Virus record (IMG/VR): IMGVR_UViG_3300042698_000029
Span: 89,127-153,126 of that record
Source: a virus
Reading direction: 5' to 3' (one strand)
DNA: 64,000 nt
The notes beneath the pieces are model-generated. The model was not told the origin of the DNA. It saw nothing but the letters and a program-made list of their open reading frames with translations, and searched no databases. Of this stretch, positions 6,909 to 52,254 are shown in pieces. Position 1 is the first letter of the stretch, and the number at the start of each line of letters is the position of its first letter. The position numbers were made by a program, and so were the translations under genes.

Positions 6909-6962
6909 GTGACGTCACACCACCCCGCTGTCCGGAAGGACCGGAAAAGTGACCGATGTCAC
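6909..6962. promoter_or_regulatory. Double palindromic operator at rep1 start
   Basis: GTGACGTCAC (6909-6918) is a perfect palindrome. GTGACCGATGTCAC (6949-6962) matches GTGA-N6-TCAC, and its first three bases are the rep1 GTG start codon. A protein bound here would block translation-start DNA and transcription of rep1. Confidence 0.5.
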
Positions 6963-8667
6963 AGCCCAGATGATCCAGGCCCGAGCCAGCCTGGAGACCG
7001 TGATGACCTCAGTGTCCCGCCTCACTGGGACCAATGGGGAAGTCGTGAGGGCCCTCACAGACCTGGTTGTCGGGGAGGCCGCATGGTTGAGCCTGCTGGA
7101 CCGGGAGGAGATCATCAGCCGCTCTCTGGAAGTCTTGCGAGAGGCCGGATGTAAGGCGTCCCGCCCTCTGGTATCCGGGGCCGTACAGACCGCCTTCAAA
7201 CTCTCCCAGAAGCGCACAGCGGTTGAGGAGCTCTACCTCGAAGCCCAGCAAGGTGACCTGCTCCCACAGATCGATCCGCAGATCTGGACCAACGAGGGCC
7301 GCTACAAGAGGTTCCTGGACTCCCTGTACCGACTCTCCCTGTACCGCCGGGCGCGGCCTGAGTCGGTGCTGGGGTGCTTCGCCGTTCACAGCCTCTGCCT
7401 GATCCCTCCACACACAAGGGTGGAGACGGACGGCAGCGAGAACGCGCTCAACGCTCTGAGCGCGGTGGTGGGCCAGACCGGCAAGGGCAAGGGCAACGTC
7501 CAGGGGTGCACGGACGTCGTTCTCAAGCCATTGATCCAGCAGTCCGTTCCCGGAAAGAACGAACGGGGAGGGATCCGCCGCGCAGCGGGAGTGGCCTCGG
7601 GTGAAGCGATCATCGACCAGTTCTCAGGCAGCTGGGAAGACGATGACGACATCATGGCCGCCGACGAGGATGGAAGGGTCTCTGGGCAGAAGTGGGACGC
7701 CGTTCTCCTGGTCATCGATGAGATGAAGTCCCTGCTGGCCACCATGGACCGGTCGGGCTCCACCACCGACAGCACCCTCACAAGCCTTCTCACCGGAGGC
7801 GACGTGACCTCTCAGAAAGCCGATGTGACGGGCAACGGCGGAGGAAGGGTGACGCTGACGGGAGGCGAATACCGGTTCTGCGGGTCAGGAGGCCTTCAGC
7901 CGGAGTTCTTGGACAGACTGGCGAAGACCGGCGGCATCGGCTTGGTCAAGCGCATCCTGAAGCTGCCCGCCGGGATGCATCCCGACCAGATCCACGCACG
8001 GAAGGTTCTCGTAGAGGGCGGCTACGGTCGCTCAGAGGCCGAAGAGGACGCGGCCCTTCTCCGTTCATCGCTCCACGGCCTGCGCGAGAACGGGACCGTC
8101 ACGGTGGCCCGCTCCATCCAGGAAGTCATCGACAAGATCGCTGATGCTTCTGTCGAGGATCGGGGCTTCAGCGAAGTAGACCCAGCCGGACAGGGTCTCC
8201 ACCTCCGCATCGTTCTCGCGGCCTTCTTCGCCCGTCTGTCCTCTCTGTGGGAGATCGATCGTGACGCCTGGACCATGTCCGGGTACCTCATGAGCTTGGA
8301 CGAGGCGATGCACAGGCACATCCTCGGGTACGTGGGAGAGGTCGAGCAGGACGAGCGGGCCCGAGAGATCGGGGAGTACACGTCCAAGACGGTCTCGGTG
8401 AAGACCAAGGAGACCTGGGAGTCCACGGGCTCGACGCCGGTCCTGGACAGGGCCATGGGGAAGATCCTGGAGTTCATGTACAACGCGGGTGGGGAGCACA
8501 CGGCCACCGACGTCCGGGACAAGTCAGGAGCCAACAGTTCTACTCAGGCCGCTCACAAGGGTGTGACCGGGAAGCAGCTCCACGTTCATGCCTTGGAGCG
8601 GATGGTCATGTCGGGCGCGGTGAAGAAGGTGGGCCGGAAGTTCGTTGCTACTCGGAAGACCCTGTAG
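6949..8667 (+). CDS. Rep1: DUF3987-like replication ATPase/primase-helicase
   Basis: The 572-aa protein has a clear P-loop GQTGKGKG (175-182) and Walker B VLLVIDE (252-258), with a further ATPase-type strand RVTLTGGEYRFCGSGG. The C-terminal 90 residues resemble a winged helix (KILEFMYNAGGEHTATDVRD). This fits the DUF3987-type ATPases used as replication proteins by plasmids and phages of actinobacteria. The GTG start has AAGGA upstream and overlaps an operator-like palindrome. The gene is followed by a terminator and then by a ten-copy iteron region, the usual neighbour of an initiator. The replication role is inferred from domain and context. Confidence 0.7.
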   Translation: MTDVTAQMIQARASLETVMTSVSRLTGTNGEVVRALTDLVVGEAAWLSLLDREEIISRSLEVLREAGCKASRPLVSGAVQTAFKLSQKRTAVEELYLEAQQGDLLPQIDPQIWTNEGRYKRFLDSLYRLSLYRRARPESVLGCFAVHSLCLIPPHTRVETDGSENALNALSAVVGQTGKGKGNVQGCTDVVLKPLIQQSVPGKNERGGIRRAAGVASGEAIIDQFSGSWEDDDDIMAADEDGRVSGQKWDAVLLVIDEMKSLLATMDRSGSTTDSTLTSLLTGGDVTSQKADVTGNGGGRVTLTGGEYRFCGSGGLQPEFLDRLAKTGGIGLVKRILKLPAGMHPDQIHARKVLVEGGYGRSEAEEDAALLRSSLHGLRENGTVTVARSIQEVIDKIADASVEDRGFSEVDPAGQGLHLRIVLAAFFARLSSLWEIDRDAWTMSGYLMSLDEAMHRHILGYVGEVEQDERAREIGEYTSKTVSVKTKETWESTGSTPVLDRAMGKILEFMYNAGGEHTATDVRDKSGANSSTQAAHKGVTGKQLHVHALERMVMSGAVKKVGRKFVATRKTL

Positions 8668-8680
8668 TTGTTCGAATGCC

Positions 8681-8711
8681 GAAGCCCGCTCCTCTCCCGG
8701 GGGCGGGCTTC
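8681..8711. terminator. Terminator after rep1
   Basis: The stem gaagcccgc pairs with gcgggcttc, lying 13 bp after the rep1 stop codon. Confidence 0.65.
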
Positions 8712-8722
8712 GGTGCGAAAAA

Positions 8723-8935
8723 TGGGACATGGGACAGCGTGTCCCACTTATGCGCGTGAGAGCCAAAACGGTGTCCCATGTTTGTCCCATCTTTTGTTAC
8801 TCTGAGTAATAATTACGGGTACAAACTAGGGTAAAAAGGACAAATTCTCTTTCGCACCCTGTTGTCCCAGTCCGTAAGCGAAAAGTGGGACAAAAATGGG
8901 ACACCTAGCCGGACATGGGACACTGCGTTGTCCCA
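8723..8935. repeat. Iteron region 1: ten TGGGACA/TGTCCCA copies flanking an AT-rich core
   Basis: TGGGACA occurs at 8723, 8730, 8886, 8897 and 8916, and the reverse TGTCCCA at 8740, 8772, 8783, 8863 and 8929. Five copies lie on each side of an AT-rich stretch (about 8790-8860, containing gagtaataattacgg and gggtaaaaagg). Together with the upstream Rep1 gene this is a textbook layout for an iteron-controlled replication origin. The same layout appears at 50266-50474 with a different iteron. Confidence 0.75.
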
Positions 8936-27326: not shown

Positions 27327-28252
27327 GCATCATCACCCTGGTCAGCAAGGACAACGGGGTCGGTCTCAGCGCGGACATGGTCCTCCTGGAGAAGTTCTTC
27401 GCAGGAGAAGGCCACACTGTACGCCGGGCCGACTGGGAAGCCCCGTTCATCGAACCGTGCGATCTGATCGTCTTCCTGGAACTGTTCGGATCCCAGCTCC
27501 TGCCCTATGCCCGCCGGTCTGTCTTCGTGCCCAACCTGGAGTGGATGATTCCCACCTGGATCCCCGAACTACGGGGCGTCACCCAGATGTGGGCCAAGTC
27601 GATCGCCGCGTACAAGGTCTTGCGGGGCCTGCGCATGCCTGCCGAATACACCGGCTTCCTCACGCGCGACCGGTACGACCGAACGGTAGAACGGACCAAC
27701 ACCTGCCTACACCTCAAAGGCAGGTCCAGCGCCAAGAACACCGACGCCGTGATCGAGGCCTGGCAGCGGTTCGGGACCTACTTGCCCCCTCTGACGATCA
27801 TCGCCAACGACCCCATCAATCACAGCCTGCCGGACAACGTCACCGTCCTCGGCCGACTCAGCGACGCCGAGGTCAGCCACCACCTGAACACCCACCGCAT
27901 CCACGTCTGCCCTTCCAGGGTCGAAGGATGGGGGCACTACATCACGGAGGCCCTGACCTGCCGGGGCATCGTGGTCACCACCAGTGAATCGCCCATGGTC
28001 GAACATGTCACCCCGCAGTGGGGCTTCATCGTGGAGCCTTACGGCGTACAGCTCCTGCCGGGCACGTTCGTCAACGAAGTGGGCATCAGCGCGGAGAAGC
28101 TCGCCGCCTGTGTCATGGAGGCCGCGATCCTGTCCCCGGAACGGACGACGGAGATGGGCCGCATGGCCCGCTCCCACGCCCTGCGCCGCAACGGTGAGTT
28201 CTCCGCCACGGTCCGCACCCTGCTGGGCGACCTGCTGAAGGAGGACACGTGA
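27323..28252 (+). CDS. GT-B-fold glycosyltransferase (GT4-like, 309 aa)
   Basis: The C-terminal half has CPSRVEGWGHYITEAL (about residues 195-210), the E-x7-E-type sugar-nucleotide signature of GT4 enzymes, followed by the expected helices. The N-terminal half begins with a Rossmann-like strand. GTG overlaps the previous stop (GTGA), as for most genes here. It is the only GT-B enzyme among five transferases, so it probably adds a different linkage. Confidence 0.82.
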   Translation: MSIITLVSKDNGVGLSADMVLLEKFFAGEGHTVRRADWEAPFIEPCDLIVFLELFGSQLLPYARRSVFVPNLEWMIPTWIPELRGVTQMWAKSIAAYKVLRGLRMPAEYTGFLTRDRYDRTVERTNTCLHLKGRSSAKNTDAVIEAWQRFGTYLPPLTIIANDPINHSLPDNVTVLGRLSDAEVSHHLNTHRIHVCPSRVEGWGHYITEALTCRGIVVTTSESPMVEHVTPQWGFIVEPYGVQLLPGTFVNEVGISAEKLAACVMEAAILSPERTTEMGRMARSHALRRNGEFSATVRTLLGDLLKEDT

Positions 28253-29163
28253 AGCACCTGGTCAACGTCATCGCCTGGCGCAGGCCGGACTTCTTCGCCG
28301 CCACCCTCGAACGTCTGCGCATGGCCGACCGGCCGGACGTGCGCTACCGGATCTGCATCGACCACGAACCCGATTACTACGTTCCGCCCCTGGCCCAGAC
28401 CTTCCGCTTCGACCTCGGAACGGACCGCGTCGACCTCATCTACCGAGGCTGGTGCAAGAACCAGGGCCCGACTCGGAACATCGTGGCCGCCCTGCACGAG
28501 AGTCTCCTGCGCGAGCCGGACGACGACACCCTGATCCACTGGATCGAAGACGACATCTTCGTCCACCGGGAGTACTTCCTGTTCCACGAAAGCGCTCACG
28601 AACTCGTGCCGGACGCCTTCTCCGTAACGGCTTGCAACCCCAATGGCTTCCCCCGTACCCACCCGGACCTGTTCCACAAGGTCTCATGGTGGCCTGGCAG
28701 TCCCACCGTCGGGGTGAGCTTCCGCCCGGACACGGTGCGCCTGATCACGAGCCTGCTTCCGGTGTCCTACATGGACGACCCGGTCGGCCACCTCCGCCGG
28801 ACCTTCCCCCACCATGGATGCCCGCCGGACCAGTGGTCAGGAATCGACGGAGCCCTCGGCAGGGTTATGGCCACCACCGACCGACGGCCGATCTACCCCT
28901 TCGTGGGCCGGGCCTATCACGCGGGCTTCGTCGGGGCACCGTGCGAGAACGAGGCCTGCAACAACGAGAACACCCGGGACGGCATCAACAACGGGCCGCA
29001 CCGCCACGGAACCCCGGTACCCGGGCAGACCCTCCAGGAGCGGCGCGACTACCTGCTGTCCCTGGACGCCGACGGGCTCAACAGCCACGCCACCACCATC
29101 GGGGACCACGTCTGGTACGACCTCGACATTTCCTACGGTCCTGCTCTGGAGCTGACGACGTGA
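28249..29163 (+). CDS. GT-A-fold glycosyltransferase-like protein 2 (304 aa)
   Basis: A paralogue of protein 1: VNVIAWRRPDFFAATLERL at the N-terminus, WIEDDIF for the metal motif and RAYHAGFVGAPC near residue 222. GTG overlaps the previous stop. Asn-rich loops after residue 225 (NEACNNENTRD) differ from the paralogues and may change acceptor choice. Confidence 0.76.
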   Translation: MKHLVNVIAWRRPDFFAATLERLRMADRPDVRYRICIDHEPDYYVPPLAQTFRFDLGTDRVDLIYRGWCKNQGPTRNIVAALHESLLREPDDDTLIHWIEDDIFVHREYFLFHESAHELVPDAFSVTACNPNGFPRTHPDLFHKVSWWPGSPTVGVSFRPDTVRLITSLLPVSYMDDPVGHLRRTFPHHGCPPDQWSGIDGALGRVMATTDRRPIYPFVGRAYHAGFVGAPCENEACNNENTRDGINNGPHRHGTPVPGQTLQERRDYLLSLDADGLNSHATTIGDHVWYDLDISYGPALELTT

Positions 29164-29717
29164 CAACCATGCATCAACTGATTTCCGACTCCCTGGCAGA
29201 GCTGCGCCGCCGCACCGGCTGGGGCCCCCTCCACATTCTGGAGACCGGCACCATCCGTAACTCTGACGAGGAATACCGCACCGGCGACGGATGGTCCACG
29301 CTGGCTTTTGCCGAGGACATCGCCGTCCACGGAGGGACACTGACCTCCGTGGACCTTGACACCACCCACGCGGAGAAAGTTCTCGAAGACCAGGGCCAGA
29401 TGGAGCAGGTCAACCTGCTCACCGGCTACAGCATCGACGTGCTGGGGCGGATGCTGGCCAAGAAGCAGCGCTATGACGTGATCTTCCTCGACTCGGACAA
29501 CGACTCCCAGCTGATCCTGCACGAACTGATGCTGGCCCGCCTCATGGCCCGGAGGGGAGCGCTCCTCATGCTGGACGACATCGACCTGGAAGGCCGGTCC
29601 GACGCCGTGAAGGGCCTCAGGGCCATCCCGTACCTGGAGGCGGCCGGGATCGAGTACAAGATCCTGACCCGCGACGGGGGCACCCACCGCACCGGCTTCT
29701 GCGTGGCGTGGCTGTGA
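29160..29717 (+). CDS. Class I SAM-dependent methyltransferase-like protein (185 aa)
   Basis: The strand ILETGTIRN supplies a degenerate motif I for SAM binding, with TSVDLD as the acidic ribose-binding strand and IFLDSDND plus LMLDDID downstream. GTG at 29160 overlaps the previous stop. It sits among glycosyltransferases and would methylate a sugar or its precursor (inference). Confidence 0.72.
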   Translation: MTTMHQLISDSLAELRRRTGWGPLHILETGTIRNSDEEYRTGDGWSTLAFAEDIAVHGGTLTSVDLDTTHAEKVLEDQGQMEQVNLLTGYSIDVLGRMLAKKQRYDVIFLDSDNDSQLILHELMLARLMARRGALLMLDDIDLEGRSDAVKGLRAIPYLEAAGIEYKILTRDGGTHRTGFCVAWL

Positions 29718-30571
29718 TCAACTCCATGGTTGTCGTTCCGGCCTGGCGCAAGCCGGACTTCCTGGCGGCCACCCTGCACCGGCTCGCCTTGGCCGAGGAC
29801 TCCTGCGAGGAGAAGGTCGGCTACATCGTCTGCGTGGACCGCCACCCGCACCCCGACGTCCTGGAGGTGGCCTGGCAGTTCCGGGATGACCGCAGACCGG
29901 GCCTGGTCGTCGTCAAGAAGCGGATCCACGAATACCACGGCAACAGCTTCAACGTCCTGACCGGGCTGATCGACGCTCTCAAGATGCCCGGCGCCGATCT
30001 GATCCACCTGGTCGAGGACGATGTTTTCGCTGGCGTGGACTATTTCACCTACCACCGCGCGGCGCACGAGCTGATGCCGGAGGCGTTCGCGGTTTCCGCG
30101 TGCCGTAACCAGAACGACCCGGAGCGGCACTCCGACAAGCCGTACATTCTGCGCGCCCACGCCAGCTATCAGTCCCTTGGTGTGTCTTTCCAGCGCAAGA
30201 TCCTCTACAGGCTCGCCTCGTATGCGCAGGAAGGGTATTTCCGCGATCCGGTGGGCTTCTGCCAGGCAGTGTTCCCCGACTCGCGGATCCCCGCCCCGCA
30301 CGCGGAACAGGACGGACTGTTGAACCGGATTCGGGAGTCCCACGGGCTGAAGACGGTCTACCCGGACGTGCCGCGCGCCTATCATGCGGGGTTCGTCGGG
30401 TACCACCGTGCAGGAGATCCGCTGACGGAGGGAACTGCGGCGGAGCGCGGTCTCCAGTTGCTGGCCATGGATGCCGAGGAGCTGAACCGGCGCGCGGAGG
30501 GTCCGTGGAAGGACCACGAGACCATCGACCTGGACGAGGTCCGCAAGGGACCGGAGAGAGTGATTTTGTGA
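29714..30571 (+). CDS. GT-A-fold glycosyltransferase-like protein 3 (285 aa)
   Basis: The third paralogue with MVVVPAWRKPDFLAATLHR, LVEDDVF and PRAYHAGFVGYH. Conservation of all three motifs across 26466, 28249 and 29714 argues for duplication within the element. GTG at 29714 overlaps the previous stop (GTGA); the in-frame GTG 6 bp earlier is less likely. Confidence 0.76.
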   Translation: MINSMVVVPAWRKPDFLAATLHRLALAEDSCEEKVGYIVCVDRHPHPDVLEVAWQFRDDRRPGLVVVKKRIHEYHGNSFNVLTGLIDALKMPGADLIHLVEDDVFAGVDYFTYHRAAHELMPEAFAVSACRNQNDPERHSDKPYILRAHASYQSLGVSFQRKILYRLASYAQEGYFRDPVGFCQAVFPDSRIPAPHAEQDGLLNRIRESHGLKTVYPDVPRAYHAGFVGYHRAGDPLTEGTAAERGLQLLAMDAEELNRRAEGPWKDHETIDLDEVRKGPERVIL

Positions 30572-33731: not shown

Positions 33732-33836
33732 GACTTCCTCCTCAGAAACAGGTCCGGGCGGACCTCCTGGTTAAAGGATGTCCGCCCGAGGGAAAACCCA
33801 AAAGAGTTTTGAGGAAGTTCAGAGCTTTCTTAGAAG

Positions 33837-33909
33837 TGAATCCGGTCGGACTCGAACCGACGACACGGTGGTTAAGAGCCACCTGCTCTTCCAACTGAGC
33901 TACGGATCC
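33837..33909 (-). tRNA. tRNA-Lys (anticodon CTT)
   Basis: A complete 73-nt cloverleaf: acceptor GGATCCG/CGGATTC, D-arm GCTC..GAGC, anticodon loop CTCTTAA, T-arm GTCGG-TTCGAGT-CCGAC, discriminator A. Confidence 0.95.
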
Positions 33910-33948
33910 GGGCGGGGACCCCGACATCACCAGTCGAGGCCCCCTTGT

Positions 33949-34022
33949 TGAAGAGAGACGGACTCGAACCGTCATCCTTCGGCACCATAGGGCCGACGCG
34001 CTACCAATTGCGCTATCTCAAA
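33949..34022 (-). tRNA. Irregular tRNA-like gene (8-nt anticodon loop)
   Basis: D-arm (GCGC..GCGC) and T-arm (GACGG-TTCGAGT-CCGTC) are normal. The anticodon stem TCGGC/GCCGA closes an eight-base loop, CCTATGGT, and only four acceptor pairs (GAGA/TCTC) form. Longer flanking pairs CCCCTT/AAGGGG enclose the whole unit. It may be decayed, a frameshift-type tRNA, or processed unusually. Identity is unassigned. Confidence 0.5.
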
Positions 34023-34069
34023 GGGGTTCCGTTCACGGTCCTGCACAGGCGGACGGGGTTCAGCTTCAA

Positions 34070-34148
34070 GAGGCATGCGCTCTGCCATTGAGCCACCCGG
34101 GATCGGAGTCCCCGGGGCCGGATTCGAACCGGCATCTCACACCAGCAG
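34070..34148 (-). tRNA. Permuted tRNA-like gene (3' half precedes 5' half)
   Basis: On the minus strand the T-arm (GCCGG-TTCGAAT-CCGGC) and acceptor CCCGGGG plus A73 come first. A 6-nt spacer (CTCCGA) follows, then the 5' half: TCCCGGG, TG, D-arm GCTC..GAGC and CATGCC. The two acceptor strands pair over all seven positions and the anticodon stem CATGCC pairs with GGTGTG (34148 side), so the halves belong to one tRNA. The anticodon loop is split and would need end-joining at the anticodon. Amino-acid identity cannot be read. Confidence 0.6.
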
Positions 34149-34302
34149 ACCCATCACGGTAGATCAGGACGCCGACGGTTTGTCTGAGCCTGGAGCGAGA
34201 ACATCAGCTTCAACGGGCTTTGAGATTCCCGTGAGAACTTCAGCAATCATCTTCAGTTTTCGCCCTCAGGGCGACCCGTGCGCTCAGTCACGGGAGTCTT
34301 GG

Positions 34303-34330
34303 AACGGTCCCAGGAGGGGTAGGGACCGTT
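34303..34330. terminator. Terminator after the DUF7873-like gene
   Basis: The stem aacggtccc pairs with gggaccgtt. Confidence 0.6.
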
Positions 34331-34347
34331 GTGGGGATCACCTTACC

Positions 34348-35088
34348 TCATGAACCGAGAAGGTGCCGGAAGATGTTCGCGCCGACGGTGACCTGTTCCA
34401 CTTCCATGGAGTTGGCCTCCTCGCGGGCACGCTTGACGGCGTCCGACATGGCGTCGATACGGGCGACGATCTCCGCTCGGCGTTCACGGGGGAGGGCACC
34501 TGAGAACTTGGTCGTCTCCCAGTAGCCCGCGTTCTTGTCCACGGAGATGACCTCGGTCTGCGCCGGGTGCTTGTCGGTCGCCGGGTACTTCACCAGGACC
34601 GACTGCTCCTTGCGGTTGCGGACGGTCTTTACCGGAGCCGTACGGAAGCCTCCGTTTTCGGCGTCCGGGGTCCACAGCTCCGCCGGGTCGAGGACCGGTG
34701 CCTTGGAGACCACGGTCCGCAGGTCGGTGAGCTGCTTCTCCAGGAAGAGCAGGTAGGGGACCGGCAGCTCGGGCGTGATGGCCTGGCCGTCCAGCACCAC
34801 AGCGGCGCGGGCGCTCATGTTCGCGGTCTCCTTGGTGGCCACCACGTCGAAGAGCTCGGTGAGATGCTTCGCGACGTCGGCCAGCATGAACTCGACGTTC
34901 TTCTGAACCAGCGTGGACTCCGGCGGCAGCTCGTCCCCACCGTCTTCGATCGGCGTGTACTTGCGGGAGAGGCCGCTGAAAAGCGGGGCCTTCTGGAGGC
35001 CGTGGTAGATCTCGGTCACCGCGTGCGAGGTGCGGGCCTGAAGACCCTTCTGTACGGCGACGATCTGACAGAGCTTCGGTGCGGTCAC
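34348..35088 (-). CDS. DUF7873-like protein (246 aa)
   Basis: GTG at 35088 follows GAAGGA. The sequence pattern (TAPKLCQIVAVQKGLQARTS, then LPPESTLVQ, PVPYLLFLEKQLTDL and LPRERRAEIVARID at the C-terminus) matches an actinobacterial and actinophage family I know as DUF7873, of unknown function. Its location inside the tRNA array is notable. The longer frame to 35232 runs through the irregular tRNA and is rejected. Confidence 0.72.
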   Translation of the reverse strand: MTAPKLCQIVAVQKGLQARTSHAVTEIYHGLQKAPLFSGLSRKYTPIEDGGDELPPESTLVQKNVEFMLADVAKHLTELFDVVATKETANMSARAAVVLDGQAITPELPVPYLLFLEKQLTDLRTVVSKAPVLDPAELWTPDAENGGFRTAPVKTVRNRKEQSVLVKYPATDKHPAQTEVISVDKNAGYWETTKFSGALPRERRAEIVARIDAMSDAVKRAREEANSMEVEQVTVGANIFRHLLGS

Positions 35089-35119
35089 AGTCAATCCTTC
35101 GGTGAGCTTGAGTCTGAAG

Positions 35120-35238
35120 TGGGAAGAGTGGGATTCGAACCCACGATTTCCGCTGACACGCAGACGTTGCCTAGGTCGACTGCATAGACGGATCAACCGG
35201 ATTTCGTCCGGCCCCATAAGCCACTCGGGCATCTTCCC
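35120..35238 (-). tRNA. Irregular tRNA-like gene with expanded variable region (119 nt)
   Basis: Acceptor GGGAAGA/TCTTCCC, D-arm CCC..GGG and T-arm GTGGG-TTCGAAT-CCCAC are perfect. The anticodon arm is either CCGGA-(CGAAA)-TCCGG with a 5-nt loop or GCCGG-(ACGAAAT)-CCGGT with C at position 33. Between anticodon and T-arms are about 50 nt containing the hairpin GCAGTCG/CGTCTGC, far beyond a normal class II variable arm. Ser/Leu-type body; identity uncertain. Confidence 0.5.
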
Positions 35239-35429
35239 TAGATGGTCCAGGCCCCGAAAAAGTCTTCGGGGTAGATCAGGTCGTACCAGTCCAGCGCAGC
35301 CTGTGCGTCTTGGTGATACTTCTCGGCGCCATCCAGGATGCTATCGCTGGCCTGACAGACGGCGCCTTCCCTCCAGCTGTGGGGACACGGCGTACACCAC
35401 TGTGCTCCACAGGTGAGATGGCCTTTCAC
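35238..35429 (-). CDS. Small Cys/His-rich protein (63 aa)
   Basis: GTG at 35429 follows AAAGGAAG. C8, C13 and C16 with H18 (CGAQWCTPCPH) form a likely zinc site; the rest is acidic and aromatic (LDWYDLIYPEDFFG). Embedded in the tRNA array, its stop touches the 5' end of the irregular tRNA. Confidence 0.6.
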   Translation of the reverse strand: MKGHLTCGAQWCTPCPHSWREGAVCQASDSILDGAEKYHQDAQAALDWYDLIYPEDFFGAWTI

Positions 35430-35695
35430 TGCTTCCTTTCTCGAAGGGCCCGTTACGTGTCCCCGGTGGATGCCCATACCGGGTCTGGCGAGAGCGGGGA
35501 CTACACCCTTCTTCCAGTCTTGCCTCGACTTGCAGGCAAAGGATGCATTCCCGTTGACACTACCCCTCTTAGTGATCCAGGAAGGGTCCTCCCTTGCAGC
35601 CCCGAGAGGTGTTGCGGGGTATGCAACTCATGAGGCATTCACTCCGCCGGATCGGCACCGCACCTGCCTGCCTCTCCAGCGTTCCTCGTTACCTG

Positions 35696-35862
35696 TGCCC
35701 TTGGCGGGATTCGAACCCGCGCCTGGATTTCTCCAGAGCTGAGTGTGGAAAACGCGCTTCCCTACAGACCCGGTTCGCGAGCCATTCGGTGCATCCGCAA
35801 CCTTCTCAGCACGCCGCCCCTCCGTTTTTGGGCCGCTCTGTCCCTGCCTGAGCTACAAGGGC
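35696..35862 (-). tRNA. Interrupted tRNA-like gene (167 nt)
   Basis: The 5' part GCCCTTG-TA-GCTC...GAGC and the 3' part GCGGG-TTCGAAT-CCCGC-CAAGGGC-A form a full acceptor stem, D-arm and T-arm, but about 90 extra nt lie between them. The insert ends with a CTGGA-GAAA-TCCAG hairpin next to the T-arm. It is shorter than a typical group I intron. It could be an intron-bearing tRNA or an inactive remnant. Confidence 0.5.
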
Positions 35863-35873
35863 ATGATCCATGT

Positions 35874-36041
35874 TCAGTTGTCCGCGCTGTCCCCCAGGTA
35901 CTTCCGGGTGAGGCGCCTGCTCTTGCCGAGCTTGCGCTGTACCGCCCAGGGGTCCTTGTTCTTTCGGCCGCTTCCGGTGAGCGTGGAGTAGCCGCACATC
36001 AGGCAGCAGCCCCGCCAGCGCTTGTGGGGAGAGTGGGCCAT
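35874..36041 (-). CDS. Small basic Cys-containing protein (55 aa)
   Basis: ATG at 36041 follows GGAG. The start AHSPHKRWRGCCLMC and the end RKLGKSRRLTRKYLGD match a small basic protein family that I recognise from Streptomyces genomes (function unknown, likely RNA-binding). It lies within the tRNA array and is preceded by a ten-codon frame. Confidence 0.62.
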   Translation of the reverse strand: MAHSPHKRWRGCCLMCGYSTLTGSGRKNKDPWAVQRKLGKSRRLTRKYLGDSADN

Positions 36042-36075
36042 GACTGAGCTCCGTTCGAGTTTTCCCGGCCCCTCT

Positions 36076-36108
36076 TCAGGGCTGGGGTAGCTCGCGGTAC
36101 TCGTTCAT
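36076..36108 (-). CDS. Ten-codon ORF (MNEYRELPQP), possible leader peptide
   Basis: GGAGGA precedes the ATG at 36108, and the stop TGA lies in a small hairpin (CCCTGAAGAGGGG) that comes before the ribosome site of the 55-aa gene. The layout parallels 24412-24435. Confidence 0.35.
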   Translation of the reverse strand: MNEYRELPQP

Positions 36109-36260
36109 CGTCCGTCCTCCGGTCTGGGTTGAAAGGTGCGGGGGCCGTATAGCCTCGGCCGCAGAAATATCTTGCATCAGGAGAGCCGCCACGCGGATCA
36201 CTGAAGTTGGCCTCCTCCTACCCGTGCAGAGTCGGCTGTCGTCTCTGCTGGCATCCGCCG

Positions 36261-36332
36261 CTCCCCTTCAAGGACTCGAACCTCAGTTTCCTGATCCAGA
36301 ATCAGGCGTCCTGCCGACTGGACGAAAGGGGA
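36261..36332 (-). tRNA. tRNA-Gln (anticodon CTG)
   Basis: 72 nt: acceptor TCCCCTT/AAGGGGA, D-arm GTCC..GGAC, anticodon loop TTCTGGA, T-arm TGAGG-TTCGAGT-CCTTG, discriminator G. Confidence 0.93.
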
Positions 36333-36356
36333 TTGAGATTATGCAATTGTACTGCG

Positions 36357-36430
36357 TAGGTGGGGTGGGATTCGAACCCACACATTGCATCCGTTATCCG
36401 GCCGTCTCTGCGCGATTGGACTACCCACCT
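36357..36430 (-). tRNA. Irregular tRNA-like gene (short anticodon loop)
   Basis: Acceptor AGGTGGG/CCCACCT and T-arm GTGGG-TTCGAAT-CCCAC are perfect and the overall length is normal (74 nt). The anticodon region GGCCGGATAACGGAT pairs only as CCG/CGG around a 5-nt loop GATAA, without U33. Identity is uncertain; possibly a pseudo-tRNA. Confidence 0.5.
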
Positions 36431-36511
36431 TTGCAGGCGCCTGCCGTATGGATCCCGACCAAGAGTACAGCAGGCGCCTTCACGAAACCGAAACCCGAGG
36501 GAATCGGTTGG

Positions 36512-36676
36512 TCATACGTCCTGGGCGATCTCCTCTTCGCAGCCCGCGTGCAGCCACTTCTTGAGGATCCGGTCCTCTACTTCGAAAACGTAGGGGTCCG
36601 CTACCCAGAAAACTTCTTCTTTCGCTACCCCTACCAACCCACAGTGGGAGCACTTTCGATACAGCTTGGTGTTCAT
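36512..36676 (-). CDS. Zinc-binding micro-protein (54 aa)
   Basis: ATG at 36676 follows GGAGGG. CSHC near the start and a late H-x2-C (KWLHAGCEEE) suggest a zinc finger. It lies between tRNA genes and may be transcribed with them. Confidence 0.62.
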   Translation of the reverse strand: MNTKLYRKCSHCGLVGVAKEEVFWVADPYVFEVEDRILKKWLHAGCEEEIAQDV

Positions 36677-36723
36677 GAGGTTCCCTCCGAGTGAGTGACT
36701 TTTCAATCTCTCGGACGACCTCG

Positions 36724-36797
36724 TGGCTCGGGCTGGGCTTGAACCAGCGACCTTCTCCTTATGAGGGAGCTGCTCTAACCACCTGAGCTACAGAGCC
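36724..36797 (-). tRNA. tRNA with anticodon CAT (Met, or Ile2 if modified)
   Basis: 74 nt: D-arm GCTC..GAGC, anticodon loop CTCATAA, T-arm GCTGG-TTCAAGC-CCAGC, acceptor GGCTCTG/CCGAGCC with one mismatch. Confidence 0.88.
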
Positions 36798-36805
36798 TTG
36801 CTTCA

Positions 36806-37090
36806 TCAGACGATCTTGTGGACCATCTTCGGCATCCCGAAGGACATCGCACAGGTGGGGCCGTACTGCGTCAGCAGCTCCACCTGGGGGACGCTGCCGT
36901 TCTCGAAGGGATCGGTCCAGGTCTCCACCGGCATGCCGTTCGGATAGCCGCCGTAGTTCATGACTTCGGCGAGGGTGGCGAAAGTACCGGCCGGGACGGA
37001 GGCGGCCCACAGCGTCACCTTCTCGGTGAGATGCTTCCCCAGGTCGGGGTTGGCGGCGTAGTGAGACTTCTTGTCGACCGTGATGTGCAT
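36806..37090 (-). CDS. Hypothetical protein (94 aa)
   Basis: ATG follows AGGGGGAG. Compact alpha/beta sequence (TVDKKSHYAANPDLGKHLT, then LAEVMNYGGYPNGMPVETW). No family recognised. It lies inside the tRNA array 9 bp from the Met tRNA. Confidence 0.6.
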   Translation of the reverse strand: MHITVDKKSHYAANPDLGKHLTEKVTLWAASVPAGTFATLAEVMNYGGYPNGMPVETWTDPFENGSVPQVELLTQYGPTCAMSFGMPKMVHKIV

Positions 37091-37121
37091 GACTCCCCCT
37101 AGTTTCTCCCCGCGTGTACCG

Positions 37122-37194
37122 AGCCTCCGACAGGGTTCGAACCTGCGACACCTTCCTTACGAAGGAAGTGCTCTACCAGCTGAGCTACAGAGGC
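37122..37194 (-). tRNA. tRNA-Thr (anticodon CGT)
   Basis: 73 nt: acceptor GCCTCTG/CGGAGGC, D-arm GCTC..GAGC, anticodon loop TTCGTAA, T-arm GCAGG-TTCGAAC-CCTGT. Confidence 0.95.
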
Positions 37195-37280
37195 AATGTC
37201 CGGCTTTCGAGCTCTCAGGAGACCGGACGAACCTGACTAAGGTGTTACCGGGCAGTACCCGGTTACTGATCAGTACCCCG

Positions 37281-37354
37281 TACACTCGGCAGGATTCGAA
37301 CCTGCAACCTCCTGGTCCGTAGCCAGGTGCTCTATCCGATTGAGCTACGAGCGC
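37281..37354 (-). tRNA. tRNA-Arg (anticodon ACG)
   Basis: 74 nt: acceptor GCGCTCG/CGAGTGT, anticodon stem CCTGG/CCAGG with loop CTACGGA, T-arm GCAGG-TTCGAAT-CCTGC. Confidence 0.94.
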
Positions 37355-37359
37355 TTGAC

Positions 37360-37409
37360 GAGGTACCGCGTCTTCCTCGGACTCACCTGCGGGAGCCACG
37401 CGGTACCTC
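37360..37409. repeat. 12-bp inverted repeat hairpin upstream of tRNA-Arg
   Basis: The arms gaggtaccgcgt (37360-37371) and acgcggtacctc (37398-37409) are perfect, with a 26-nt loop. There is no T-tract on either side, so it is not an ordinary terminator. It may be a structured RNA or a processing signal in the array. Confidence 0.4.
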
Positions 37410-37502
37410 TTGCCTGGTGTGACCCAAGGCGACCGCCGTGTCCCGCACCCCTTGACCCCCGGAGGGCTCGCCTGGTGACGGGAACTTAACGGATAGCAGG
37501 AG

Positions 37503-37576
37503 TAGGGGAGAGAGGAATTGAACCTCCGACCTCGTGATTATCAGTCACGCGCTCTTACCAACTGAGCTACACCCCT
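37503..37576 (-). tRNA. tRNA-Ile (anticodon GAT)
   Basis: 74 nt: D-arm GCTC..GAGC, anticodon stem CGTGA/TCACG with loop CTGATAA, T-arm GGAGG-TTCAATT-CCTCT, acceptor AGGGGTG/CTCCCCT with one mismatch. Confidence 0.93.
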
Positions 37577-37745
37577 TTGAAGAGGCCGGTCTCCTGTCCA
37601 GAAGATGCGCGGCCTCTCGCCCAGCGAATTCCCCGAAGGTGCATTCCATGGAATTCTCTGCACTTGGGCCCTTGGGTTTCCCTGGCCCCTTCTGTCTTCA
37701 GTATGCCCACAGTGCCGCAGGCCTTGCAAGCCGTATCAGCTCGAT

Positions 37746-37759
37746 GTGACCTGACTCAC
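37746..37759. promoter_or_regulatory. GTGA-N6-TCAC site
   Basis: GTGACCTGACTCAC lies immediately after the stop of the 137-aa gene and upstream, on the minus strand, of the tRNA array. It could control array transcription. Confidence 0.5.
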
Positions 37760-37760
37760 T

Positions 37761-38174
37761 TCAGCAGTACGCCGACTGGAGCATCCAGGTCGGGGCTGAA
37801 GCCTTGAGCTCCAGCGTCTTCACCGCCCATTCCAGTCGGAGAACCTCCTCCATGCCCAGGGAGAAGTGACTGTGATCGATCGTCTTCCCGCCGCCCTCGT
37901 CCACGGAGACCGACCGCGACGTGAGCAGGATGAACCGATGCCCCAGTGGGGTGGGGTTGTTCACCCAGGGGATCTCCAGGCCGAGTTCGTCCCGGAGGCG
38001 CACGGTCAGGTCGTCGTACTCCAGAGCGTTGACCGTTTCCTCGTCCACGCCGTGCTCCAGGAGCAGCACCTTCTGCATGGTCTCGATAACGTCCCCCGAT
38101 CCGAAGGTCCAGCTCTGCTCGGACGGCTCTTCGAACGCTACGCCGAAGTGGAGCTCTGTCTGGTGGTAACCCAT
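37761..38174 (-). CDS. Hypothetical protein (137 aa)
   Basis: ATG follows GGAAGGGGA. Soluble acidic protein (GYHQTELHFGVAFEEPSEQS at the start). No family recognised. It is divergent from the Acb2-like gene, which may link it to anti-defence functions. Confidence 0.6.
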   Translation of the reverse strand: MGYHQTELHFGVAFEEPSEQSWTFGSGDVIETMQKVLLLEHGVDEETVNALEYDDLTVRLRDELGLEIPWVNNPTPLGHRFILLTSRSVSVDEGGGKTIDHSHFSLGMEEVLRLEWAVKTLELKASAPTWMLQSAYC

Positions 38175-50119: not shown

Positions 50120-50265
50120 GTACTTCTCCTTCCACTGGACCGACTCGGCCCTCTCAAGGCCTGTCACGGCCTCCTCCTCAGTCCGGAGAACCTACAACAG
50201 GCGTCGGGTGTTCGACAGGCCCTCCGTGTTCGACTTTCTCACGCTACGCATTGTCATACCGCAGG

Positions 50266-50474
50266 TGGGGTCCTGGGGTCCCTCCGAGTGGTGGGGTCCT
50301 CGCTCTAGGGACCCCACTTGCAGTAATACCAGCTCACAGGTTTGACGTGTCCCTATCACATAGGATGGGGATGTCCTTTTTGTTTTGTTTTATACACATG
50401 TAAAGGGTGGGGTCCCTCACCCAAGGACCCCACCGGGACCCCAGTGCAGGGACCCCAGGGACCCCAGGACCCCA
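50266..50474. repeat. Iteron region 2: ten GGACCCCA/TGGGGTCC copies flanking an AT-rich core
   Basis: TGGGGTCC occurs at 50266, 50274, 50292 and 50408, and GGACCCCA at 50309, 50425, 50436, 50450, 50459 and 50467. Four copies lie left and six right of an AT-rich core (50317-50407, including ccttttt-gttttgttttat). The terminator and the Rep2 stop follow, exactly as in iteron region 1. It is a likely second replication origin. Confidence 0.75.
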
Positions 50475-50493
50475 CCAGCTACCGAGAGTGACG

Positions 50494-50524
50494 AAAAAGC
50501 CCCCGGCGATCACCGGGGGCTTTC
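50494..50524. terminator. Terminator after rep2
   Basis: The stem gaaaaagcccccgg pairs with ccgggggctttc. Confidence 0.7.
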
Positions 50525-50538
50525 GTTCTGTTCGATTT

Positions 50539-52116
50539 CTAGCGAGGCGTGTACTTGCCCTCTCCGTTATCCGCCAGGAGCTTGTTCTCGACCGCGTACC
50601 GGACCGTCCAGCGGGCCAGCCCGCCCTTGGCCTTCTCCTTCTCCCAGTCCCCTCCGGCGATCACGCAGCTCTCTTCCCACTCCGTCACCTCCGACTTGGT
50701 CAGCCGGTCCCGGATCTCGACCTGGGAAAGGGGCTTGAGCCTGCACTTCGCCGTGATCTTGTGCGCCACCCGGGCCACGATCTCCGGCCACGTGCCCGGC
50801 GTACCCATGGCGTCCGCGTTCTCCCGCACCCGCTCAGCACGGGACTTCCGCCCGGCCTCCTCGACCCGGCCCTCGGTTTCAACCCTGCTCTGGAAGGACG
50901 TGAGGACCTCCGCAGCGCGGTGAGTCACGGACCCGAAGCCACGCGCTACCGCCCAGTCCTCTTCGCTGATCTCGTAAGAGCACCGCATCAGGGCCGACTG
51001 CGCGGCCACCCGGTACAGGGCCAGAGTGGCGTGCGAGGCACGCGGGTCCTCCAGGGTGAGGCCACCCGACAGAGACGAGGCCAGGATCGTCAGCTCGTCC
51101 CCCATGACCTCCGGCATGGAGAGGACGACGCCCTCCTCGTCCGCCCCCACACGGACGCAAAAGTCCACCACGTCCCCGAACGAGTCCGGGAAGCCGGGAC
51201 GCTCCCTGCGGGCCTCCAGAGCCGCTGCACGGAGGCTTTCCGGGACGGCCTGGCCCCGGCTGAGCAGACGCCCCACCTCCAGCACCGCCTCGTCCTCGGA
51301 CGCGGTGACCACGGGGACGATCATGTTGCGCTGGTAGAAGCCGGTCGTGTGTCCGGCCACCTCCGCGAAGATCTCCCCCTGGTAGTAGGCGGTGATCCCC
51401 AGAACGTACTTCTGCGCCGGAACCACGCGGTGGTGTTCATCGGAGGCCGTGTCGTTGCGGATCTCGTCGCCGACGTACGCGTCCAGGAGGTTCGACTCCA
51501 GCTCCAGCGCCTGGTTACCCCGGGAGCTGGACTTGCTCATGGCGCTGAGGAGGACCGCCCCCTCGGAATAGGACAGTTCGGTCCGGGGGACGCATCCCCA
51601 CGCAAACTCCGGGGTTCCGGGCTGTGGACCCATGATGTCGTCCTCGTCCTCCGAGAGGACGATTTTCCGGAGCATGCGCGCCAGGAGGGCGGAACCGTTG
51701 GCCGGGCGCAGCGTCTGGAATCCGAAGTCGAACTCCTCCACGTCCTCGGCGGACACAAAGACCGGCAGGGATGGCTTCGCCAGCGCTGCGGGGACGGGCA
51801 TGAGCCGGTCTCGCGCCGACATGGTGGTGTTGGAGCCCGCGCCGGAGAACGCCACCAGAGCGTAGAACCCGCCGAGGTGCACTGGACTCTTCTGGGGGTT
51901 GGGCTGTCCCAGAACGCGAGGCCCCGCAAGGATCCCGGCTCGGTTGAAGCAGGCTGCGGCCAGCCCTTCCGGCTTGACGCCTACCGCATCAGCGGCTTCC
52001 TTGATCCGCGCCATGTGCGGAAGGGCCCACAACTCCTCCGGAAGACCGATGTCACGGAGCTGGAGCGCCAGGGCCGATCGCTGTTCCGGAGTCAATTTCA
52101 GTGTGGTGCTGGTCAC
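50539..52116 (-). CDS. Rep2: DUF3987-like replication protein paralogue
   Basis: 525 aa. GTG at 52116 follows GGAGAGGAAG. FSGAGSNTTMS (91-101) stands where a P-loop would be, but lacks the GK(S/T), so ATP binding may be lost or altered. An Arg-rich region and a C-terminal winged-helix-like end (LSQVEIRDRLTKSEVTEWEE, then AVENKLLADNGEGKY) match the architecture of Rep1. Location next to ten iterons indicates replication initiation; domain identity is tentative. Confidence 0.6.
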   Translation of the reverse strand: MTSTTLKLTPEQRSALALQLRDIGLPEELWALPHMARIKEAADAVGVKPEGLAAACFNRAGILAGPRVLGQPNPQKSPVHLGGFYALVAFSGAGSNTTMSARDRLMPVPAALAKPSLPVFVSAEDVEEFDFGFQTLRPANGSALLARMLRKIVLSEDEDDIMGPQPGTPEFAWGCVPRTELSYSEGAVLLSAMSKSSSRGNQALELESNLLDAYVGDEIRNDTASDEHHRVVPAQKYVLGITAYYQGEIFAEVAGHTTGFYQRNMIVPVVTASEDEAVLEVGRLLSRGQAVPESLRAAALEARRERPGFPDSFGDVVDFCVRVGADEEGVVLSMPEVMGDELTILASSLSGGLTLEDPRASHATLALYRVAAQSALMRCSYEISEEDWAVARGFGSVTHRAAEVLTSFQSRVETEGRVEEAGRKSRAERVRENADAMGTPGTWPEIVARVAHKITAKCRLKPLSQVEIRDRLTKSEVTEWEESCVIAGGDWEKEKAKGGLARWTVRYAVENKLLADNGEGKYTPR

Positions 52117-52254
52117 TTTTCTTCCTCTCCTGAGGAAGAGCCCTGGGTTCACCACGCCGTTATCGGGTAGAGTCGTCTCAACGAAGCGAGCTGCACTCTA
52201 TTCGTGTGATGGAGCTCCAGAGTCTTCCAGTGGGTAGCTGGCGATGACTCCTTG

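Follow-up and report, generated by a model that had tools for sequence, protein, structure and literature searches.

An iteron array beside a phage rep gene

Does the array of short repeats at positions 50266–50474 of a 64-kb stretch of viral DNA constitute a replication origin, and what is its relationship to the helicase-like gene, rep2, that lies beside it? The stretch, hereafter the window, comprises 64,000 nucleotides and corresponds to bases 89127–153126 of the record IMGVR_UViG_3300042698_000029 (coordinates are those of the window unless marked "record"; noncoding features are given without strand). We consider the array a predicted replication origin that belongs to one of three paralogous initiator-origin modules on a 153-kb phage. 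The Rep proteins would correspond to the helicase portion of the proteins in the actinophage primase-polymerase/helicase family; the probability of this explanation as a whole is roughly 0.8.

Origin 2 (50261..50479) contains ten exact GGACCCCA/TGGGGTCC copies (at 50266, 50274, 50292, 50309, 50408, 50425, 50436, 50450, 50459, and 50467), four to the left and six to the right of an AT-rich core (50318..50407); ten copies flanking an AT-rich core had been described in a first-pass annotation of this DNA. Outside the array, copies occur four times in the window and 11 times in the record (record total 21), and 60 third-order Markov copies of the record yielded no more than four copies of any 8-mer per 250 bp. 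The repeat is not low-complexity sequence. The iterons are set within a long interrupted inverted repeat with arms that are 96% complementary (50261–50283 and 50457–50479), the core is flanked by two dyads of the form TGGGGTCC-N9-GGACCCCA, and folding of the array gave z = −6.3. The core, sixth in AT-richness within the record, includes ATGTCCTT (50371–50378), TTTTGTTTTGTTTTATA (50378–50394), and CATGTAAA (50397–50404). A hairpin from a terminator-like scan (50496..50523, arms 93% complementary) occupies the gap between rep2 and the iterons.

The same order of rep gene, terminator, and iterons is present near 8.7 kb, as had been noted previously. Rep1 (572 aa; 6949..8667, plus strand) is followed by a terminator-like hairpin (8679..8713; arms 8679–8692 and 8700–8713) and by origin 1 (8723..8935), in which ten TGGGACA iterons surround an AT-rich core (8790..8862) that carries AAAAAGGACA at 8833–8842 and is the third most AT-rich spot of the record. 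A scan of the whole record for local repeats recovered these two arrays and a third, six copies of AGTCGACA at record 76879–77069, approximately 12 kb outside the window. Here the Rep3 gene (record 77134–78540) adjoins its terminator and then the AGTCGACA iterons around an AT-rich core. All three modules thus share a layout of rep gene, terminator, inward-facing iterons, AT-rich core, and mirrored iterons. The proposal of two parallel modules holds for the architecture, but the modules number three; the GGGAC said to be common to the iterons is found in six of ten copies and is lacking from the remaining copies and from the third module.

The three cores rank second, third, and sixth in AT-richness within the record. 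TATAAAACAAAACAAAA is common to the cores of origins 2 and 3 and occurs nowhere else in the 153 kb; a shared 17-mer between these cores was reached in 0 of 1000 shuffles, and the exact core word had no match in viral contigs. An AGG[AT]CA box, chosen post hoc and hence a lead only, occurs in seven of eight cores against 0.7 expected. Other genes of the record lack comparable arrays: for 228 of 231 genes, no 7-mer occurs more than four times within the next 420 bases downstream.

Rep proteins belong to an actinophage primase/helicase family

A family profile was built from outside actinophage primase/helicase proteins alone, without window sequences, and compared with 235 predicted proteins. Rep3 (4.5e-28), Rep1 (2.1e-26), and Rep2 (3.9e-17) were recovered, the next match being at 0.56. 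Direct comparison revealed homology of Rep2 and Rep3 (hhalign 1.3e-6, Z 14) and a Z of 7.5 for Rep1 and Rep3, while Rep1 and Rep2 had no significant direct match and are related through the family profile. By this profile homology, Rep1, Rep2, and Rep3 are one protein family of predicted actinophage primase/helicase initiators. No Rep_3/RepA-type match from Pfam or NCBIfam was found for the Reps, and, of the three, only Rep1 and Rep3 matched the PHROG of the phage DNA polymerase/primase family (phrog_28894; 1.5e-11 for Rep1).

Rep2 (525 aa; 50539..52116, minus strand) is assigned a GTG start at 52116 with AGGAGAGGA just ahead, the longest open reading frame starting at 52155. It is a Walker-A-deficient family member: the P-loop position reads SGAGSNT in place of SGxGK[GS], in agreement with the earlier remark that the P-loop lysine pattern is lacking. 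The Walker A lysine is present in Rep1 (GQTGKGKG) and Rep3 and lost in Rep2 only, which retains the Walker-B-region glutamate and the conserved arginine. No PrimPol domain was found within Rep1–3; a separate PrimPol gene lies at record 80751–81800, a few genes from Rep3. PrimPol is likewise split from the helicase in prophiGD05-1 and Dulem virus 32, so that a PrimPol in the same protein is not strictly defining.

The outside family was reached by one route. Searches recovered no homologs of Rep1 or Rep2 in phages, plasmids, or viral contigs and none of Rep3 in phages or viral contigs, and neither Rep2 nor an alignment of the three Reps found homologs in genome contigs. The link came only from the comparison of Rep3 with plasmids, which gave an 884-aa protein encoded by Nonomuraea plasmid III. 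All three Reps match this protein, which, used as query, recovered primase/polymerases of Gordonia, Mycobacterium, and other actinophages. The Kineococcus plasmid pKRAD02 was dropped as a homolog, the match being confined to the PrimPol part. No relatives were found among solved structures. The family is spread across unrelated phages; its tree has long branches, the longest being Rep2, such that duplication and separate acquisition of the modules are indistinguishable and recent duplication lacks support.

Iteron type co-varies with the C terminus of the predicted initiator in outside loci

Iterons, AT core, and iterons were found immediately 3′ of the homologous gene in 16 of 19 outside loci examined. 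These comprise Nonomuraea plasmid III; the Gordonia phages Hibiscus, Tarzan, Reyja, Jojo24, Santhid, TinyDot, BetterKatz, Francois, and Pimento; the Mycobacterium abscessus MabD prophages prophiGD05-1, GD12-2, and GD17-1; Tsukamurella phage TPA4; Corynebacterium phage CL31; and Dulem virus 32. The measurement covered the repeats alone in GD12-2, Reyja, Santhid, Francois, and Pimento. Each outside group carries its own repeat, CCAGCAA and CTGACAC among them; CGTGGAC and CCTGGAA are the repeats for Tarzan and Jojo24. Three open reading frames annotated as hypothetical, SEA_HIBISCUS_55, SEA_JOJO24_54, and SEA_TINYDOT_58, overlie iteron arrays (L125:4826-5098, L126:4721-4951, and L127:4730-5080, respectively) and may not be real genes.

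Close pairs that share an iteron are 95–100% identical over the last 75 aa, as compared to 34–73% for close pairs with different iterons, while the helicase core is 95–100% identical in both sets. This co-variation holds in 16 of 16 pairs, drawn from three groups and not independent of one another. In the MabD prophages GD17-1 and GD12-2, for example, the helicase core is 100% identical over 330 aa, the C termini are 35% identical, and the iterons differ. As iteron type tracks the last 75 residues while the helicase core stays nearly constant, the C-terminal ∼75 residues are likely the iteron reader. Rep1–3 differ in both C terminus and iteron, and orthogonality of the three pairs is therefore predicted. 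We infer that each rep gene and its array form an initiator-origin pair. The suggestion that the repeats diverged to avoid cross-talk receives indirect support from the co-variation in outside phages.

The MabD prophages with the module are integrated (PMC8092301), which argues that its role extends beyond plasmid maintenance to the replication of phages. Nonomuraea plasmid III is a 59-kb circle with terminase, portal, capsid, and tail genes (NZ_LT559120.1, filed as a plasmid), and the Nonomuraea gerenzanensis element is probably an extrachromosomal prophage.

Genome context of the modules

The record of 153,126 bp has identical first and last 119 bases, for a unique length of 153,007, an overlap compatible with either a circular genome or a linear one with terminal repeats. 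Its gene content is that of a tailed phage, with genes for a terminase, a portal, a capsid, a tape-measure-like protein of 1726 aa, PolA, and a DUF3987 primase-helicase. For many virion genes, identity to the counterparts in cluster BM Streptomyces phages, Satis among them, is 50–72%; phages of that group have prolate heads of 285 nm and terminal repeats of 1 kb (PMC6687918). Judged by this homology of virion and replication core, the source element is a large soil-bacterium phage, a distant relative of the cluster BM phages, and not a plasmid co-integrate. Neither a ParA family match nor a tyrosine integrase was found in the record.

Several other features were observed. Nine GTCTCA copies in 219 bp (452–670) lie within an AT-rich gap just upstream of an FtsK/SpoIIIE-like gene (805–2865) whose product matches a helix-turn-helix family at its C terminus, a combination that recalls the TraB/clt arrangement of Streptomyces plasmids. 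Many GGAAGC/GCTTCC repeats occupy record 88363–89001 (L006:12363-13001), between a membrane-protein gene and the start of the window; the related contig G006 also has GGAAGC-rich stretches, in part coding. A 2.4-kb gene-free stretch with GATCATC repeats (record 27523–29952; L003:8523-10952) contains the 60-mer that is richest in AT within the record as well as the minimum of GC skew (28,244), and by synteny with Satis is probably the physical genome end. The terminase gene (record 35379–37781; L003:16379-18781) has an apparent intein-like insertion inside Walker A (GTGKA...THNS), as judged by eye. Seven phage tRNA genes lie at 33836–37576, and the anticodon call for one of them has, unusually, two bases.

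Alternative explanations and a proposed mechanism

Several observations weigh against the interpretation as phage replication origins. The AGTCGACA array is the weakest of the three, being equaled in 3 of 300 local shuffles, and the GC-skew minimum at record 28.2 kb coincides with no module. Close relatives replicate without these modules, which are thus non-essential to such phages. Among outside loci, an adjacent array is absent from the cluster O mycobacteriophages Catdawg and Bora and from a Tsukamurella plasmid; these homologs indicate that the protein can work without one. Finally, the AlphaFold models were poor, and the C-terminal winged helix is putative.

Loss of the Walker A lysine in Rep2 implies that the origin 2 module would require a helper to act as an origin, would be regulatory, or would be a copy in decay. 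A further possibility is that Rep2 and origin 2 serve in interference or as a decoy: taken from a competing phage, the helicase-dead initiator and its iterons would block or titrate the initiator of that rival rather than start replication. The confinement of the lysine loss to Rep2, which has the longest branch of the tree and yet a perfect array, and the scatter of the family over unrelated phages would fit this idea, which we nonetheless regard as unlikely: GGACCCCA iterons were found in no competing phage, Rep2 still has the glutamate and arginine noted above, and the match of its origin core to origin 3 of the same phage suggests shared home use. Arrays that serve as operators or partition sites, with Rep binding regulating transcription or segregating DNA, would explain why an array adjoins a terminator, from where it could control the next gene, and would accommodate a Rep2 without the P-loop lysine; centromere sites are likewise marked by clustered short repeats. 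This reading appears quite improbable given that the Reps fall in a primase/helicase family, that an AT-rich core sits between the arms, that ParA is missing from the record, and that integrated prophages carry the same module.

A fused co-integrate, put forward as one option in the first-pass annotation and here taken as a fusion of independent plasmid replicons, could account for one element having three modules whose iterons differ, and is compatible with long branches and unsupported recent duplication. However, the backbone is that of one phage, with terminase, portal, capsid, and tail genes common to Satis-like phages, no partition gene was found in the record, and the modules are separated by ∼21 and ∼41 kb in which plasmid gene blocks are lacking; we consider a co-integrate very improbable. 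Least credible is a reading of the arrays as groups of DnaA boxes for the host protein. The Nonomuraea iteron TGTCCACA resembles the actinobacterial DnaA box, and TGTCCCA of origin 1 is one step away, but no such resemblance is seen for GGACCCCA, for AGTCGACA, or for CCAGCAA and CTGACAC from outside loci, and iteron changes follow the phage protein.

Under the preferred initiator-origin interpretation, each Rep would bind its own iterons via the C-terminal ∼75 residues, and the mirrored iteron arms would place Rep on both sides of the core, at which the helicase part would load and open the AT-rich DNA. Synthesis might then be begun by the PrimPol encoded near Rep3 or by the DUF3987 primase. 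Each Rep would fire only its own origin, except that Rep2, bound at origin 2, would depend for unwinding on Rep1, on Rep3, or on the DUF3987 helicase of the phage; such binding with a helicase in trans is favored for Rep2 over a regulatory role, decay, or a decoy directed at rival phages. The arrays, their layout, the protein family, the core word of origins 2 and 3, and the co-variation in other phages are observed; that the modules act as origins, that the C terminus binds, that the pairs are orthogonal, and that the modules are used lytically is what we infer from these comparisons. A more tentative extension, which we would rate below even odds, is that three mutually orthogonal pairs of one family coexist, that helicase-dead Rep2 recruits a sister helicase or represses firing, that the Rep present programs origin choice along a long genome, and that the C terminus is a swappable iteron-recognition cassette across the family.

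Relation to known systems and significance

Hibiscus gp54, prophiGD05-1 gp33, and Nonomuraea WP_225267152.1 belong to the same helicase family and share the order of rep followed by iterons, AT core, and iterons. In each of those loci that was read, a single module was seen, and PrimPol is encoded by that gene or by one close to it; here there are three modules and Reps without PrimPol. Cluster BM phages Satis, JustBecause, Kela, and Frankenweenie share virion genes (portal 55%, capsid 71%), PolA, the DUF3987 primase-helicase, and FtsK; in Satis, the one annotated member checked, and in six related contigs, the outside-only profile detected no Rep homolog and no rep-linked iteron array was found, repeat clusters in these relatives being coding repeats or unlinked to a Rep gene.

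The lambda O and P1 RepA origins likewise combine a phage-borne iteron-binding initiator with an AT-rich region. Their initiator folds are not known to be related to the Reps described here, and P1 has different plasmid and lytic replicons rather than three paralogous modules. RepA origins are known in mycobacterial prophages, with P1 mentioned (PMC7157519), and rep-iteron loci are known in Streptomyces plasmids (PMC3583192). In the Streptomyces theta plasmids pWTY27, pFP1, and pFP11, short bidirectional iterons form a long inverted repeat beside rep, as here, but each is a plasmid with a single replicon; in vitro binding of such an array has been shown for RepA of pWTY27 (PMC3583192). In the open-access literature searched, neither a phage with three paralogous initiator-origin modules nor co-variation between C terminus and iteron was found described.

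Phages with two replicons are known, as in P1; three paralogous modules on one phage, each with an initiator gene and a repeat of its own, are unusual and appear unreported in the literature searched. For a set of actinophages, probable origins are gained, partly under open reading frames annotated as hypothetical, and the modules may provide candidate orthogonal replicons for actinomycete genetics. Together with their outside relatives, they make the acquisition of new DNA specificity by an initiator directly testable.
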